This document shows, piece by piece, positions 2,124 through 12,887 of a stretch of DNA of 64,000 nt. The stretch is from Oceanospirillaceae bacterium (GTDB taxonomy: Bacteria > Pseudomonadota > Gammaproteobacteria > Pseudomonadales > Balneatricaceae). Positions within the stretch are counted from its first letter, which is position 1. Every line of letters begins with the position of its first letter. The DNA is taken from contig JABXIM010000114.1 in the NCBI GenBank assembly GCA_013373085.1, positions 1-64,000 on the forward strand, given 5' to 3'. The position numbers and the translations under genes were made by a program. The notes under the pieces are model-generated. The model had not been told where the DNA came from. It saw only the letters and a program-made list of their open reading frames with translations, and made no database searches.

Positions 2124-3152
2124 TCACAATGCCGGCAGCGTATCCATCGGCCAGCGCGGACGCACGCGAATGGCGAGGTCGCTGTGCTGGCCCGCCAGCA
2201 GGCGTTGGCAACCGGCATAGGCGATCATGGCGCCGTTGTCGGTGCAGAACTGGGGCCGGGCATAGAACAGCCGCGCCCGCTCCTTGCGCACCATTTCGTC
2301 GAGTTTTTCCCGCAGCCGCCGGTTGGCGCTGACACCGCCGGCGATGATCAGTTGTCGCATCCCGGTCTGCTGCAGCGCCCGACGACACTTGATCGCCAGC
2401 GTATCGACGACCGCGGACTCGAAGGCGGCGGCGATATCGGCCTTGCTCTGCTCGTCGAGGTTACCGTCGGCATCGCGCAGGCTGTTGGCGGTATTAAGGG
2501 TGAAGGTCTTGAGCCCCGAAAAGCTGAAGTCCAGACCCGGACGATCGGTCATCGGGCGCGGAAAACGAAAGCGCGAGACATCGCCCAGCTGCGCAAGGCG
2601 CGCCACTTCGGGCCCGCCCGGGTAATCCAGCCCGATCATCTTGGCGGCCTTGTCGAAGGCCTCGCCGGCGGCGTCGTCGAGGGATTCGCCGAGCAGCTCG
2701 TACTCGCCGATACCATCCACCCGCACCAGCTGGGTGTGGCCGCCGGACACCAGCAGCGCGACGAACGGAAACGCCGGCGGGTTCTGCTCGAGCATCGGCG
2801 CCAGCAGGTGGCCTTCCATGTGGTGCACGCCGATCGCCGGAATGCCGAGGCCGAAGGCCATCGAGCGCGCTGTCGAGGCGCCCACCATCAGGGCGCCGAT
2901 CAGGCCCGGCCCCGATGTGTAGGCGATGGCATCGAGCTGCGACTTGTCGAGTCCGGCCTGTGCCAGCACTTCACGCACCAGCGGCAGCAGCTTGCGCACA
3001 TGATCGCGCGACGCCAGCTCCGGCACCACGCCGCCGTATTCGGCATGCATGTCGATCTGGCTGTAGAGCGCATCCCCGAGCAGCCCCTGTTCGCTGTCGT
3101 AGACCGCCACACCGGTTTCGTCGCAGGACGTTTCGATTCCCAGTACTCGCAT
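2124..3152 (-). CDS. tsaD: tRNA N6-adenosine threonylcarbamoyltransferase TsaD
   Basis: [19 protein letters not shown]... with metal-binding HHMEGH; the start is the internal Met of the 3236 ORF. Confidence 0.97.
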
Positions 3153-3325
3153 CTGTCGTTTTCTTCGCCCAATGCCAAGGTGTATAGAGGAAGGACGTCT
3201 GCATAACGCCCGCCAAGGTCGCGCATTATCGCGCAAATGGCGGGTTAATGCACTTTACAGTCAAGCCCCCCGGCGCTAGAATTTTGCCCCTCGCTCAGAG
3301 TCGGGTAGCTGCATACCCGCGCGGC

Positions 3326-3420: not shown

Positions 3421-3636
3421 ATGCCTAGCGTAAAAGTTAAAGAAAACGAGCCGTTTGACGTTGCTCTGCGTCGCTTCAAGCGTTCCTGCGAAAAAGCCGG
3501 TGTTCTGGCTGAAGTTCGTCGTCGTGAGTTCTACGAGAAGCCGACTTCCGTTCGCAAGCGCAAAGCTGCCGCTGCCGTCAAGCGTCACATGAAGAAGGTT
3601 TCGCGCGAAAACTCTCGCCGCGTACGCCTGTACTGA
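3421..3636 (+). CDS. rpsU: 30S ribosomal protein S21
   Basis: 71 aa [42 protein letters not shown]. Confidence 0.98.
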
Positions 3637-3706
3637 TCGATCGGGATTGAACGCACGTCCCTGACACGATCGCTTTGTTGAACGACCCAGCCGCGAGGCA
3701 GTAACG

Positions 3707-4156
3707 ATGTCCGAACTCAAGCAGCGAATCAACGCCGAGATGAAAACCGCCATGCGCGCCAAAGACAAGGCACGCCTGGGCACCATCCGCATGATTCAGG
3801 CTGAGATCAAGCGCATCGAGGTCGACGAGCGCATCGAACTGGACGATACGCGTGTAATGGCGGTGCTGGACAAAATGCAGAAACAGCGCCGCGATTCAAT
3901 CTCGCAGTTTGACGAAGCGGGTCGCCAGGATCTGGCTGACCAGGAGCGACAGGAGCTGGAGGTGATTAAAACTTTCCTGCCGCAACCGCTTACCGAGGAA
4001 GAAGTGGCCGGTCTCGTCGACCAGGCCATCAGCACGTCCGGTGCCCAGTCGATGCAGGACATGGGCAAGGTGATGGGCGTGCTCAAGCCCCAGATTCAGG
4101 GACGTGCCGACATGGGCATCGTCTCCAAGCTCGTAAAAGACAAGCTGGCAGGCTAA
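3707..4156 (+). CDS. yqeY: GatB/YqeY domain protein
   Basis: 149 aa MSELKQRINAEMKTAMRAKDKARLGTIRMIQAEIKRIEVDER...; located between rpsU and dnaG. Confidence 0.92.
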   Translation: MSELKQRINAEMKTAMRAKDKARLGTIRMIQAEIKRIEVDERIELDDTRVMAVLDKMQKQRRDSISQFDEAGRQDLADQERQELEVIKTFLPQPLTEEEVAGLVDQAISTSGAQSMQDMGKVMGVLKPQIQGRADMGIVSKLVKDKLAG

Positions 4157-4189
4157 ACTCCGCGCTGAATCCCCCTCAGCAGGTCCGCC

Positions 4190-6037
4190 ATGGCTGGACG
4201 TATTCCGCAGTATTTCATTGACGATCTTCTGGCCCGCGTCAACATCATAGACGTGGTCGACGGACGGGTCGACAAGCTCAAGCGCGCCGGCAAGAACTAC
4301 TCCGGCCTGTGCCCTTTCCACAAGGAAAAATCCCCGTCATTCAGCGTCAGCCCCGACAAGCAGTTCTATTACTGTTTCGGCTGCGGCGCCGGCGGCAACG
4401 CCATCGGCTTCCTGATGGAGTACGACCGTCTCGACTTTCCCACTGCGGTCGAGGAACTGGCACGGCTGGTCGGTCTCGAGGTCCCGCGCGAAAACAGCAC
4501 GCCGCAGCAGGCGCAGCGGGAGAAGCACCTCAAGGACCTCTATGGCATCCTCGACGAAGCCGCGCGCTTCTACGAGGAGCAGCTGCTCAGACACCCGCAG
4601 CGCCAGCGCGCCATCGATTATCTCAAGAACCGGGGCCTGACCGGCCAGGTGGCGAAAGCCTTCGGCATCGGCTTCGCGCCGCCGGGGTGGGACAACCTGA
4701 TGCAGGCCCTCGGTGGCGACAGTCAGCGCCTCGAAGGCCTGGAGCAGGCCGGGATGCTGATTCACAACGAGGAACGGCACAGCCACTACGACCGCTTTCG
4801 CGAACGCATCATGTTCCCGATTCGCGATATGCGCGGCCGGGTCATCGCCTTTGGCGGCCGCGTCCTCAACGACGAAAAGCCCAAGTACCTGAACTCGCCG
4901 GAAACCGAGACCTTCCACAAGAGCCGCGAGCTCTACGGCCTCTACGAAGCCCGGCAGGCGAACTCGCAGCTCAAGCGGCTGCTGATCGTGGAAGGCTATA
5001 TGGACGTCGTCGGCCTGGCCCAGTACGGCATTCGTTACGCCGTCGCGACCCTCGGCACCGCCACCACCGCCCAGCACCTGGAGCGGCTGTTCAAGCTGGT
5101 ACCCGAAGTGGTGTTCTGCTTCGACGGCGATGCCGCCGGCCGCAAGGCGGCAACCCGCGCGCTGGAAACCACCCTGCCGGTGATCCGCGACGGCCAGGAG
5201 GCCCGCTTTCTGTTCCTGCCCGAGGGTGAGGATCCGGACAGTCTGGTGCGCCGGGAAGGCAGCGACGCCTTCAGCGCCCGCCTCGACGAAGCGCTGCCGC
5301 TGTCGGAATTCTTCTTCCGCTCGCTGACCGAAGACGCCGACCTCAACAGCCTGGCCGGCAAGGCCAGCGTCGCCAACGACGCCCTGGCCCTGGTCCGCTC
5401 GATGCAGCCGGGGCTGCTGCAGCAGATGATGCTGGAGCGCATCAGCGAACTCACCGGCCTGTCGCAGTCGCAGATCAACAGCGTCAACAACCTGCAGGAA
5501 ATCACCCAGCCCGCCGCCCCGAGCCGGGAATCAGCACCGCCGCCGCCGGCCCCGCCGCGCGCCTTCCGCGATACGCCCGACGCCGCACCGGCGCCCGCCA
5601 AGAGCAAAAAGCGCAAGCGCAACCTGAACCTGTACGAAATCGCCATTTCGGGCATACTGCACTTCCCGCGGGACGCGGCCAGCCTGCCCCGCGCCGATGA
5701 ATTCGAGGGCCTGCCGGATCAGCACCAGAGCCGGCTGCTGGCGCGACTGGTGCGCTACTTCCAGGAAACCCCGGACTCCTCCCTCGGTACCCTGGTCGTG
5801 GACTGGCTCGATGACGTGCAGCTGCAGGAACTGTTCCTGGTCCTAAACGAAATCGCCTACGAGAGCGACCTGGAAAGCCCCGAGGAACTGCGCAAGAACT
5901 TCCACGGCGCCATTCAGCGCTTGCTGCACGAACACCGCCCGGAGCACGAACTGAAATCGCTGCGATCCAAAAGTCTGCAAACCATGACCGCGGACGAAAA
6001 GCAGCGACTGATCGAACTGAGCCGCTACCGGCACTAG
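4190..6037 (+). CDS. dnaG: DNA primase
   Basis: 615 aa, zinc finger CPFHKEKSPSFSVSPDKQFYYCFGC, toprim VEGYMDVVGL. Confidence 0.98.
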   Translation: MAGRIPQYFIDDLLARVNIIDVVDGRVDKLKRAGKNYSGLCPFHKEKSPSFSVSPDKQFYYCFGCGAGGNAIGFLMEYDRLDFPTAVEELARLVGLEVPRENSTPQQAQREKHLKDLYGILDEAARFYEEQLLRHPQRQRAIDYLKNRGLTGQVAKAFGIGFAPPGWDNLMQALGGDSQRLEGLEQAGMLIHNEERHSHYDRFRERIMFPIRDMRGRVIAFGGRVLNDEKPKYLNSPETETFHKSRELYGLYEARQANSQLKRLLIVEGYMDVVGLAQYGIRYAVATLGTATTAQHLERLFKLVPEVVFCFDGDAAGRKAATRALETTLPVIRDGQEARFLFLPEGEDPDSLVRREGSDAFSARLDEALPLSEFFFRSLTEDADLNSLAGKASVANDALALVRSMQPGLLQQMMLERISELTGLSQSQINSVNNLQEITQPAAPSRESAPPPPAPPRAFRDTPDAAPAPAKSKKRKRNLNLYEIAISGILHFPRDAASLPRADEFEGLPDQHQSRLLARLVRYFQETPDSSLGTLVVDWLDDVQLQELFLVLNEIAYESDLESPEELRKNFHGAIQRLLHEHRPEHELKSLRSKSLQTMTADEKQRLIELSRYRH

Positions 6038-6157
6038 CATTCTTCGCCGCCGGCGCCTTGACGCCATCGCCGGGCGCCCGCGGCGGCACACAGCCCTCAA
6101 GACCTTCCAATCTGGTCTACTTTTAAACAGGAACAGTCGCGAAAAATGGCTGTCAAC

Positions 6158-6186
6158 TGGATTTAAATGGCGCCGAAATGTATAAT
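6158..6186 (+). promoter_or_regulatory. Candidate sigma70 promoter upstream of rpoD
   Basis: TGGATT-17 bp-TATAAT (-10 at 6181-6186), about 50 bp before the rpoD start. Confidence 0.5.
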
Positions 6187-6236
6187 ACCGCGCTCTCTTT
6201 TAGGCTACCCATCTTTCATCGTCTCGTAGGGCCTCT

Positions 6237-8081
<1,845 letters not shown>

Positions 8082-8104
8082 TTAGGAGGGGTACAACCCT
8101 GTAC

Positions 8105-8135
8105 AAAAAACGCAGCCAACTGGCTGCGTTTTTTT
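8105..8135 (+). terminator. Rho-independent terminator after rpoD
   Basis: aaaaaaCGCAGCCaactGGCTGCGttttttt perfect 7-bp stem with T run. Confidence 0.92.
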
Positions 8136-8281
8136 GTATCCGCAATAAACTCCGGCGCAGCCGACGCAGACCAGATACCGGTATCCCGCCGTTTAATCGC
8201 CAGCAAAACACCAATTGTTCCAACAAATTCAAAGAGCTATTGGCGCGGCCCGACGCAATCGCTATAATTTGCGCTCCTTTC

Positions 8282-8358
8282 GGGCCTATAGCTCAGTTGG
8301 TTAGAGCAGTGGACTCATAATCCATTGGTCGCAGGTTCGAGTCCTGCTGGGCCCACCA
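8282..8358 (+). tRNA. tRNA with CAT anticodon; probably tRNA-Ile2 (lysidine-modified) rather than tRNA-Met
   Basis: GGGCCTATAGCTCAGTTGGTTAGAGCAGTGGACTCATAATCCATTGGTCGCAGGTTCGAGTCCTGCTGGGCCCACCA; complete cloverleaf and encoded CCA. Confidence 0.95.
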
Positions 8359-8359
8359 C
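8316..8359 (+). repeat. Direct repeat copy 1 (tRNA 3' half; attL-like)
   Basis: cataatccattggtcgcaggttcgagtcctgctgggcccaccac identical to 9421-9464. Confidence 0.95.
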
Positions 8360-8567
8360 TTCAAGTCTTAAAAATCGTTACGAATCATGGCGTTACGATT
8401 CATTCGTTTTTAAGCGCCCTTCCTGTGTTCCCATTGGATTGTGTGACGAGCTCGAAATCATCGAACAGGGATTAAGGGAACGGCGACTGACAGGTAAGGT
8501 TGCAGCCTGAACGAAGCTCGGTCATATTGCCCGGTATAAGGCAACCAGTTCGAACATAGAGAACGTA

Positions 8568-8861
8568 ATGAGACCGTCAGAAGCGCTTAGCCTACATCGG
8601 CAGGAAATCCGGGAGATTGTCGAGCGTCACAACGCACGCAACCCTCGCGTCTTTGGTTCCGTCGTGCACGGCGATGACACCGAAGACAGCGATCTCGACC
8701 TGCTCGTCGATCCGATCGATGGAAAGACCTCCCTGATCAGTCTGGTCAGAATCAAGCGCGATCTCGAAGTCGTGCTGGGAGTCCGGACAGATGTGCTCAC
8801 ACCGATGTCGCTGCATGAACGGTACCGCCAGGACGTGCTGCAGGAAGCCGCGCCTGTATGA
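8568..8861 (+). CDS. MNT-type nucleotidyltransferase (antitoxin of an MNT/HEPN pair)
   Basis: 97 aa with GSX10DXD motif (FGSVVHGDDTEDSDLDLLVD); 4-nt overlap with the next ORF. Confidence 0.88.
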   Translation: MRPSEALSLHRQEIREIVERHNARNPRVFGSVVHGDDTEDSDLDLLVDPIDGKTSLISLVRIKRDLEVVLGVRTDVLTPMSLHERYRQDVLQEAAPV

Positions 8862-9232
8862 GTCGAAAGCCCCGCAGGGTACCCGAGCGGATCCAGGACA
8901 TGCTCGAGGCCATCGGCCATATCGAGTCAGACCTCGGCGATTTGAGCAGAGACGAGTTTCTGACCGACGGCAAGACACAGCGTGCCGTTATCGAAAGCCT
9001 GATCGTCATCGGCGAAGCAGGCAACAAAATTACGCAGTTGGACCCGACGCTCAAGGATTCAGCGCCGGAGCTTTGGCAGCAGTTCCGCGATGCCTACGAC
9101 ATGCGGATCATCCTGACCCATGAGTATTTCCGAGTCGATGCCGGCGTGGTCTGGACGACCATCCAGGACAACCTGCCGCTGCTGAAGGCACAGCTGACAG
9201 GATTTCTATCTCAATACTCTCCAGCGGATTAG
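8858..9232 (+). CDS. HEPN (DUF86) domain RNase-type toxin
   Basis: 124 aa with RX4HXY motif (RIILTHEY); ATGA overlap with the MNT gene. Confidence 0.88.
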   Translation: MSRKPRRVPERIQDMLEAIGHIESDLGDLSRDEFLTDGKTQRAVIESLIVIGEAGNKITQLDPTLKDSAPELWQQFRDAYDMRIILTHEYFRVDAGVVWTTIQDNLPLLKAQLTGFLSQYSPAD

Positions 9233-9420
9233 TGCCCTGCTCAGGTCGCCAACTACAACCAGGTCAACCTGAAGAGCTCCGAGGCTGTGATCACGTACCC
9301 GGCAACCTCTGGCGCTATTCTGCAGAACTTTCGCCTCTACAGCTCCCGGCAGCACGTGCACCCACTCTGACCCTGGAGCACGACACCGAGGGGTAACAAT
9401 GCGTGCCGTTAGAAGGGACC

Positions 9421-9464
9421 CATAATCCATTGGTCGCAGGTTCGAGTCCTGCTGGGCCCACCAC
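9421..9464 (+). repeat. Direct repeat copy 2 (partial tRNA 3' half; attR-like)
   Basis: 44-bp exact copy of 8316-8359; GGAC also shared just upstream with one intervening mismatch. Confidence 0.95.
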
Positions 9465-9668
9465 CTCCCCTCCCCCAACTTCCATGACGAAAACTGGCGC
9501 GCCTTAACGGTTGCTCCCGCTCTACATCCACAAGTACGATTTGTCTGTTGGCGATACTTTAGATTTGGCAGTTTTGTAGTAAGGTGGTGACTTGTAGCCG
9601 CTGCGGATAACCCCGTGGCTTCTGGCAGACCGACCACCGGGACCTCGGATACATGGCAGGGATAGACA

Positions 9669-10505
9669 GTGACTGATCAGCCCAACCTCCTCCCCTTCGC
9701 TTCGCGTCGTTTCAAGCGCTTGAGCACTGCGCTTGGCCTGAGCCTGATCCTGGGGGCGCCTGTCGCGTTCGGGGCCAGCCTGCTGACCGGGTTCGATGCC
9801 TACGAGAAGGGCGAGTTCAGCGTCGCGCTGCAGCAGTTCCTGACCCTTGCCGAGCAGGGCGAGTCGGAGGCCCAGTACAACCTGGCGCTCATGTACCAGC
9901 AGGGGCTGGGCACCGCCGCCGATCCGGCGGAGGCCGCCCGCTGGTTCACGGCAGCAGCCCGCCAGGGCAGTGCCAATGCCCAGTACCGCCTGGCGATGCT
10001 GTACGACAGCGGCGAAGGCGTTCCCCAGAACAACCACGAAGCCGCCCGCTGGCTTCGGCAAGCCGCCGACCAGGGCCATCGCACCGCCCAGTTCACCCTT
10101 GGGGGCCGCTATTACAGTGGCAAAGGGCTGGACCAGGACTACGGCCGTGCTATCGCCTGGTATACCAAGGCGGCTGAGCAGGGCCATGCCAGCGCGCAGT
10201 TCAGTCTCGGCGTGCTGTACGAAAGCGGCAGGGGCACAGCCAAGGACCTTGAACGTGCGCGCTATTGGTACCAGATGGCCGCCGAGCAGGGCCATCCCGG
10301 CGCGCAGAACAACCTGGGGGCAATCTATCTGATCGGCAAAGGCATCGAACCCGATCCCGTGCAGGCCTACAAGTGGTTCAGTATCGCCTCCAGGCGCGGC
10401 GAAGGCGCCGCCGGTCTGGCGCTCGCGACCGAGGAGCTGACGCTGGACCAGATCGAGCAGGCCAAGGCTCTGGCGCAGCAGTGGATGGAAAAGCGCAATT
10501 ATTGA
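9669..10505 (+). CDS. Sel1-repeat (SLR/TPR-like) protein with N-terminal signal/hydrophobic segment
   Basis: 278 aa; repeated units such as AQYNLALMYQQGLGTAADPAEAARWFTAAARQG. Confidence 0.9.
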   Translation: MTDQPNLLPFASRRFKRLSTALGLSLILGAPVAFGASLLTGFDAYEKGEFSVALQQFLTLAEQGESEAQYNLALMYQQGLGTAADPAEAARWFTAAARQGSANAQYRLAMLYDSGEGVPQNNHEAARWLRQAADQGHRTAQFTLGGRYYSGKGLDQDYGRAIAWYTKAAEQGHASAQFSLGVLYESGRGTAKDLERARYWYQMAAEQGHPGAQNNLGAIYLIGKGIEPDPVQAYKWFSIASRRGEGAAGLALATEELTLDQIEQAKALAQQWMEKRNY

Positions 10506-10667
10506 TGCGCCGGTCCCACACCAGACCCGGCTAATCGTCGGGTCTCGCCAAAAGCCTTCTATGCTTAAACCCTAAACCCCGCTTATTCACCCGGGTGTGG
10601 TACATCGCCCAGGCCAGAATCCAGACGCGGGCGCTCTCACAGCCACCAGCAACACCAGGACCCTCTT

Positions 10668-12887
10668 GTGATCGTCACCCTTTTGCCACTCTTCTCGCTC
10701 TTGCTGAGCTGCTTCATCATGATGCTGGGTTTCGGCCTGACCGGCCTTCTGCTGCCGGTTCGCATGGGGCTCGAAGGCATGAACACCGACACCATCGGCA
10801 TGGTGCTGTCGATGTACGCCGTCGGCATGCTACTCGGGGGACTCTATGCCCGCCTGCTGATTATCCGCGCCGGCCATATCCGCATGTTCGCCGCGGTGGC
10901 CGCACTCTGCGCCATCAGCGTGCTCGCCTGCAGCCTGTCCACCAATCCCTGGCTGTGGGGGCTGATGCGCATGCTGATGGGATTCTGCATGGCCTGCGCG
11001 CTGGCCGCGATCGACAGCTGGCTCAGCGAAAACGCCACCCAGGAAACCCGCGGTCGCATCCTCGCCGCCAACCAGATCGTGATCATGGGCGCCTTCTTCA
11101 TCGGCCAGTTCATGATCAACCTCGCCAGCCCGAGCGACACCACCCTGTTCATCATCGCCGGTATGCTGCTGTCGCTGGCGCTGATCCCGATCGTCATGAG
11201 CCGCAAGTCCGGACCTTCGGTAACCGAGGTCCGCTCGATGTCGATGGTGGCGATTTTCCGCCTCTCGCCGCTTGGCGTCGTCAGTTGCTTTTTCTGCGGC
11301 ATTCTTTACAGCGGCATACTGAACATGCTGCCGATTTTCGCCGGCAATTACGGCATCGAAGGCTTCCAGCTGTCGCTGTTCATGGGTGCTGCGGTGTTCG
11401 GGGCCTTTATCCTGCAGTTCCCGGTCGGCTACCTCTCCGACCACTTCGACCGCCGGACGGTACTCTTCGGCCTGCTGATCGTAACTATCGCCGCCAGTAT
11501 CGCTGCACCCTTTCTCGTCGGCCTCGACAGCCGTCTGCCGATCATGATCATGGTCGCCCTGATCACCGGCGTGTTCGCCTGCATGTACCCGATGAGCATC
11601 TCGGAAACCTTCGACAAGGTACTGCAGAGCGACATGGTCGCGGCCATGGGCGGGCTGATCGCCGTCTACGCCCTGGGCAGCATCATCGGTCCCTATGCGG
11701 CATCGCTGTCGATGCGGCTATTCGGCAGTGACGCCCTGTTTAGCTTTCTCGCCGTACTCGAAGCTCTGCTGCTGCTGTTCGTGATTTACCGCATGCGCGT
11801 CCGCGATGCCCTGCCGATCGAAGATCAGGAGAAATTCGTGATTCACGGCGCCGGCGCCGCCAGCTCGCTGGAAATAGACCCCCGTTTCGAGTACGAGGAG
11901 CCGGAAATACCGCTCAGCGCCGAGTCCGAAACGGTGGTTCGGGTGGCACAGAGCAACCCCGGGGCGGCGGTCAAGATGGCCATCGCGCTGGCGGAGTACT
12001 CGCCTGAACAGGCCGCTCAGCTGGCTGCCGCCCTGACGCGCGTCGAACAGGTCGATATCTCGCGCCTCTACGCGGCCATTACCGAAGCGGCGCCGGAACT
12101 CAGCCTGTACATCGCCGAGGCGCTGGCAGCCGCATCACCGGAACAGTCGGACGAACTGGTGTCCTGGATCGCCAAGGAACAGCCGGAACAGCTTTCCGAG
12201 ATTATCGTCGCGATCGCTGAGGCGGTGCCGGAACACAGTCTGGATATCCTCGGCAACGTCGCCGAAACCGTGGCGGAGCAGACGCCGGAGGTGCTATTCG
12301 ATATGGCGGAAACCTATGCCAGCCATCTGCACGAGCACCTGGACGAGATGCGCCCGGTCGACCGCGCCGCGGCCCATGCCGGGCATCAGGCGGCCGACCT
12401 TTACACCCGATTGGCCGAGTTCATTCCGGAGCGTGCCGCCGATCTTGCGTACACGCTTGCCGAGGCGATGCCTGAAGCGGCCACGGAGATCACCGAGGCC
12501 TACGTCAACAGCCTCATCGAAGAGCCGGAGACGAAGACAGAGCCGGACAAAACCACAGCCGATACCGACGCTGAAATGATCGGCTGCCCCGCCGAAGAGC
12601 CCACCGGGAAAGCGGCGCCAACGCCGGAAGAGCAAGCCCGAATCGCCAGCGCGCTAACCGCGTTTATCACCCACATGACCGAAACGATGCCGGACCAGGC
12701 GGTCGAGATCGCCGCCGTACTCGTCGACTCCTGCCCGATTCTGGCTTCGGAACTGATCGAGCGCCTGCAGGCGGTGGAACAGCTCGACAGTACCCTGTCC
12801 TCGAGCGTCGACGACAAACCGGCCCCGGACATCTTCGCCGATTATCCCTATGACGAGAGCGCGAAGACGGAGAAGGGAGAGGCGTAA
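10668..12887 (+). CDS. MFS transporter (YcaD-like) fused to a long C-terminal helical-repeat domain
   Basis: 739 aa; about 390 aa MFS with 12-TM-like hydrophobic pattern, then about 340 aa soluble region with 15-residue xPExxx..IAEA repeats. Confidence 0.87.
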   Translation: MIVTLLPLFSLLLSCFIMMLGFGLTGLLLPVRMGLEGMNTDTIGMVLSMYAVGMLLGGLYARLLIIRAGHIRMFAAVAALCAISVLACSLSTNPWLWGLMRMLMGFCMACALAAIDSWLSENATQETRGRILAANQIVIMGAFFIGQFMINLASPSDTTLFIIAGMLLSLALIPIVMSRKSGPSVTEVRSMSMVAIFRLSPLGVVSCFFCGILYSGILNMLPIFAGNYGIEGFQLSLFMGAAVFGAFILQFPVGYLSDHFDRRTVLFGLLIVTIAASIAAPFLVGLDSRLPIMIMVALITGVFACMYPMSISETFDKVLQSDMVAAMGGLIAVYALGSIIGPYAASLSMRLFGSDALFSFLAVLEALLLLFVIYRMRVRDALPIEDQEKFVIHGAGAASSLEIDPRFEYEEPEIPLSAESETVVRVAQSNPGAAVKMAIALAEYSPEQAAQLAAALTRVEQVDISRLYAAITEAAPELSLYIAEALAAASPEQSDELVSWIAKEQPEQLSEIIVAIAEAVPEHSLDILGNVAETVAEQTPEVLFDMAETYASHLHEHLDEMRPVDRAAAHAGHQAADLYTRLAEFIPERAADLAYTLAEAMPEAATEITEAYVNSLIEEPETKTEPDKTTADTDAEMIGCPAEEPTGKAAPTPEEQARIASALTAFITHMTETMPDQAVEIAAVLVDSCPILASELIERLQAVEQLDSTLSSSVDDKPAPDIFADYPYDESAKTEKGEA

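Follow-up and report, generated by a model that had tools for sequence, protein, structure and literature searches.

How a unit of 1.1 kb, flanked by two copies of a tRNA 3' half and apparently lacking an integrase, came to lie behind rpoD with a toxin–antitoxin (TA) pair inside it is the question raised by this locus, which belongs to a stretch of 64,000 nucleotides from an Oceanospirillaceae bacterium (hereafter, the window). A first-pass annotation, made from the sequence alone, had taken it for a mini-island that was either a minimal remnant or a satellite mobilised in trans. The former fits our results, and we can now add the parent element, which that reading had missed: the unit is very probably a collapsed Pf-like filamentous prophage (Inoviridae) that has retained its cargo TA module. 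As no Zot gene was found in its own genome, it is filed as the remnant of such a prophage and not as a prophage; it represents a familiar kind of element at a new location.

The site itself is a single tRNA gene, detected by ARAGORN at 8282-8358 on the forward strand with the anticodon CAT, which is located downstream of rpoD (6237-8081), is intact, represents the attB gene and is 100% identical in the sister species G002. The program labels it Met, but its CATAATC context suggests a tRNA-Ile2 instead. A repeat finder placed the left attachment repeat at 8311-8362, within the 3' half of the tRNA, and the right one, a displaced copy of that half, at 9416-9467, both on the forward strand, with 96% identity over 52 nt and a start-to-start distance of 1105 bp. 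Their exact core is of 44 nt (8316-8359 and 9421-9464), preceded in both copies by GGAC plus one T/C difference, and the right copy bears one substitution. That a tRNA 3' half should recur exactly over 44 nt at a distance of 1.1 kb lies well outside what chance would give. The extent given here to the repeats is that of the att copies of two genomes of a sister genus, and their span (tRNA position ~30-77) agrees with the tRNA 3' copies of that genus, which measure 46 nt in G081 and 49 and 46 nt in G089. The duplicated tRNA end, its location behind rpoD, site-specific integration as its origin and the lack of an integrase (we found no recombinase within 8359-9415) were thus all correctly described by the first-pass annotation. 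A second copy of the 1.1-kb unit was not found elsewhere in the genome, there are no TGTCC[AG] boxes in the window's island, and a hairpin downstream of the tRNA lacks statistical significance (z -1.45). When the tRNA was compared with phage records by blastn, the matches listed included only tRNA genes of large phages. An open reading frame on the minus strand (9206-9637, WAQQDSNLRP) is an artefact, the antisense translation of the tRNA 3' copy.

Two genes that overlap by ATGA fill the centre of the unit, both on the forward strand. The first (8568-8861) encodes a predicted MNT antitoxin, an MntA-like nucleotidyltransferase matched by the Pfam family NTP_transf_2 (PF01909, 37 bits) and by PDB entry 1wot (E=8e-17), in which the GSX10DXD motif can be read as G30, S31, D42, and D44. 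The second (8858-9232) encodes a predicted HEPN toxin, a HepT-like RNase (PF01934, 60.5 bits), whose RX4HXY motif (R83, H88, and Y90) is invariant in 13 homologues. Searched by sequence, the HEPN protein had no match among solved structures. Its AlphaFold model (pLDDT 90.5) is closest to the HepT structures 7ae2, 7bxo, and 5yep, and the best 17 matches in the PDB were all HEPN/HepT chains, with a TM score (query) of 0.60-0.74 and a probability of 1.00, at E-values of only 0.005-0.07. The published definition of class I HEPN/MNT systems (adjacent PF01909 and PF01934 with GSX10DXD and RX4HXY; PMC7641770) describes this pair, which on its domains and motifs would be of that kind (type VII, HepT/MntA); the first-pass assignment as an MNT/HEPN TA pair is supported. 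In having PF01934 beside PF01909, both motifs and, in its model, a HepT-like fold, it resembles Shewanella SO_3166/SO_3165 (PMC7641770) and the Legionella HEPN-MNT (PMC11586414), from which it differs in sharing about 20% identity with the solved HepT proteins, in placing the MNT gene first and in scoring below the NCBIfam equivalog cut-offs for MntA and HepT (28.5 and 28.1 bits against 60); to judge from these scores it appears related to the named HepT/MntA, but as a different equivalog.

Relatives of the HEPN protein with 55-68% identity are paired likewise, again with the MNT gene first, in other Gamma- and Betaproteobacteria, and none of these has a rep gene nearby, which indicates that the pair also moves about in other contexts. 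Within the pair, the first two codon positions show conservation relative to the third, and the divergence of the window's copy is no greater than that of other pairs; the pair is therefore without sign of decay, unlike the rep gene described below.

The spacers on either side of the pair are not empty. According to the first-pass annotation the unit contained only the two TA genes, and this has to be corrected, since both spacers are pieces of one gene, which in filamentous phages of the Pf type (Inoviridae) encodes the replication initiator, Rep. Short scraps common to the window and the sister species led us to an intact 437-codon open reading frame in the genus mate G006, whose product is 34-40% identical to the replication initiators of Pf1, Pf4, and related Inoviridae (the Pf1 ORF430/Pf4 PA0727 family). 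This frame adjoins a tyrosine integrase, and, from open reading frames read by eye, is surrounded by ssDNA-binding, coat-like, adsorption-like, and Zot-like genes, so that it looks like part of a full filamentous prophage. The upstream spacer holds, at 8445-8510 on the forward strand, a remnant of the Rep C-terminus (residues 399-420 plus the stop codon), with 77% identity over 22 amino acids by tblastn (8445-8507) and, as DNA, 83% over 59 nt to G002 and 80% to the intact G006 rep. Downstream, 9241-9390 on the same strand is a frameshifted and stopped remnant of the middle of Rep (residues 277 to ~327), recognised by both protein and DNA comparison: 9242-9367 match Rep 277-319 with 60% identity over 43 amino acids (tblastn, E=2.7e-6 per genome), and the DNA is 78% identical to the intact G006 rep over 157 columns (E=2e-27). 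The scores of the C-terminal and middle scraps, 32.7 and 45.4 bits, exceed the maxima of 22.7 and 22.3 bits obtained in 500 dinucleotide shuffles of their respective spacers. Homology to the middle of Rep begins 9 nt past the HEPN stop codon, and the order of the scraps is reversed, with the C-terminus before the TA pair and the middle after it. Rep matches PHROG 1159, a PHROG without assigned function; no Pfam model was found for the G006-type Rep, and a Rep search of the viral_contigs collection gave no match.

Insertion at this tRNA is borne out by the relatives, among which the first-pass annotation had proposed to look for empty sites and larger islands. The rpoD-tRNA pair is present in all six genus mates, and the insert is absent in four of them (G001, G004, G005, and G006), where an MFS gene, the same that starts at 10668 in the window, comes within 0.5-0.8 kb of the tRNA, without a TA pair or rep. 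The site is unoccupied in these four, yet it is not a bare attB, as the gap is taken up by short tandem repeats that include the tRNA end: between tRNA and MFS gene there are one or two extra tRNA 3' end copies with GGGCCCACCA-type boxes (L036, L039, L040, and L041, respectively), in units of 124 bp (G001 and G004), 136 bp (G006), and ~242 bp (G005). We take these repeats to resemble the rtT repeats behind tyrT of E. coli; in an Rfam search of them only tRNA scored above a gathering threshold. G003 carries an unrelated insert of about 9 kb at the site. At about 3128-3283 of its locus (L038) there is a broken stretch resembling a tRNA, behind which comes an intact, divergent tRNA(CAT) (84%), and the insert itself (3436-11900) contains, by eye, nitrilase/isochorismatase-like and ABC transporter genes; its host tRNA may have been replaced.

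The closest relative, G002, whose RpoD protein is 96% identical and whose tRNA is the same, has behind this tRNA a different wreck of 1.5 kb, consisting of an antisense integrase C-terminus, rep pieces in normal order, and an intact VapB/VapC-type pair (assigned by MazE-like and PIN domains). This wreck lacks a right tRNA copy and has TGTCC[AG] boxes near both its ends. Such boxes, often 11 bp apart, were seen at 2543, 2571, 2599, 3973, and 3984 of the reverse complement of L037, at 8348 and 8359 of L119, and at 2879 and 2890 of L117; lying near both ends of elements at the tRNA(CAT), they are possibly candidate arm sites of the integrase. Between the island and the MFS gene the window also has a Sel1-repeat gene (9669-10505), shared with G002 and not there in G001 and G003-G006.

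Large islands with the same att repeats occur at the site in the sister genus. In G081 an integrase island of 10.8 kb at the same tRNA is closed by the 46-nt copy. G089 has the same rpoD-tRNA(CAT) arrangement, followed near the contig end by a reversed Pf-type integrase (46%) and an ssDNA-binding gene; its second contig carries, in this order, an intact rep (59%), a cargo open reading frame of 436 amino acids, the 49-nt tRNA 3' copy, a second integrase island, and the further 46-nt copy, and we infer that the two contigs (C8 and C22) are adjacent. G089 has its only Zot match on a third contig. In other members of the family the cargo behind rep consists of AbiEi/AbiEii (G081) or of Fic together with a YhfG-like partner (G165), and in the Pf phage PfAC03 a Phd/ParE pair stands behind rep-int.

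The window thus presents two marks of a Pf-like element, a Rep of the Pf1 ORF430/PA0727 family, in two fragments, and an att direct repeat derived from a tRNA 3' end; no integrase or structural gene was found in the window. We propose that a Pf-like phage with a tyrosine integrase inserted at the 3' end of the tRNA(CAT) gene downstream of rpoD, where the phage's own 3' half would have rebuilt the tRNA and the original half would have been pushed to the far end, at 9416-9467. As to the order of events, we infer that later deletions removed the integrase, coat, Zot, and most of rep, which would leave the att repeat at either end, the two scraps of rep, and the cargo module, whose place in phages of this group is behind rep. 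Mobility of the unit has probably been lost. HEPN, as a predicted RNase, would be silenced by MNT through AMP transfer to the tyrosine of RX4HXY, and the module may have persisted through addiction or a benefit in defence.

A single simple prophage would give rep followed by the TA pair, which does not explain the layout of the window, and the reversed scraps need either tandem prophages or a rearrangement. Two tandem prophages collapsed into each other would yield the observed order, and tandem elements at this very tRNA are suggested by G089. Another origin of the same order would be a still-mobile satellite or miniphage, a circle of 1.1 kb composed of att, part of rep, and the TA pair and moved by an integrase in trans, as the first-pass annotation had allowed. 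Defective filamentous miniphages exist, both att repeats are present, and Rep 399-420/TA/Rep 277-327 is a circular permutation of Rep 277-327/att/Rep 399-420/TA, as expected if att lay inside rep on such a circle. However, searches of this genome yielded neither a Pf-type integrase nor Zot, rep is broken, there is the substitution in the right att copy, the unit is single-copy, and TGTCC[AG] boxes are not left in it; in addition, neither a relative of the HEPN protein nor an intact inovirus with this MNT/HEPN pair was found in the phage and viral collections. We therefore regard a mobile satellite as improbable, and the collapse of tandem prophages is more economical than one small circle on which att interrupts rep, because rep is broken and the genome has no Pf-type integrase. 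Nor does the unit qualify as an integrating phage satellite, as neither an integrase of its own nor an intact replication gene is present.

It is very improbable that the unit descends from another kind of tRNA-targeting island, of the integrase-first type of G081 and G089, with the rep scraps as secondary passengers. In the sister genus, islands of this type do occupy the same tRNA with the same 46-nt repeat, and one directly abuts the rep-bearing element, but nothing in the window matches them, and apart from the TA pair the only gene recognisable as foreign is rep, which flanks the pair on either side. That no mobile element was involved, the repeat being a local duplication of the tRNA end and the TA pair having arrived separately, is scarcely credible: the tandem tRNA 3' end copies behind the same gene in the genus mates give it a precedent, but in those copies each gene-free unit of 124-242 bp includes no more than about 15 nt of tRNA, whereas the window has 44-52 nt repeated at 1105 bp around foreign genes and a phage rep, with the att limits of real elements.

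The collapsed prophage that we favour can be set beside known systems. Many inoviruses carry TA pairs (PMC6813254), and among Pf prophages TA morons are common, tRNA-Met with a 46-bp att is one of the sites used, and att copies are sometimes duplicated (PMC7549136). The unit resembles the Pseudomonas Pf (Pf1/Pf4-like) prophages (PMC7549136) in its site at a tRNA 3' end, its att of ~46 bp, its PA0727/ORF430 Rep family, and its TA cargo near one end. Unlike them, it keeps only rep scraps, without integrase or structural genes, the Rep of its intact relative is only ~35% identical to that of Pf1, its host tRNA is perhaps Ile2 where Pf targets tRNA-Met, and its cargo is MNT/HEPN, not ParDE. We do not claim the same target as the Pseudomonas Pf 'tRNA-Met', since the tRNA(CAT) near rep in the one locus examined (L173) is a different tRNA from the window's, and it lacks the 3' repeat. 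With tycheposons (PMC10872708) the unit shares cargo beside a tRNA(CAT) gene, but those are elements of 4-200 kb with a tyrosine recombinase, and the window's 1.1 kb, devoid of such an enzyme in 8359-9415 and of inovirus ancestry, was not assigned to them.

A parent has thus been identified for an apparently integrase-less mini-island. At the same tRNA, wrecks of one kind of filamentous prophage hold a different intact TA module in each of two sister species, MNT/HEPN and VapBC, and this parallel with G002 offers a modest natural experiment on whether a cargo TA survives its phage. The position behind rep, moreover, stands out in this bacterial family as a site where TA and defence cargo are exchanged. 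Apart from the unit, a second scrap of an inovirus rep C-terminus, with 51-55% identity, was observed in the window's own genome (G000:C208:18486-18584; L066 about 9472-9588).
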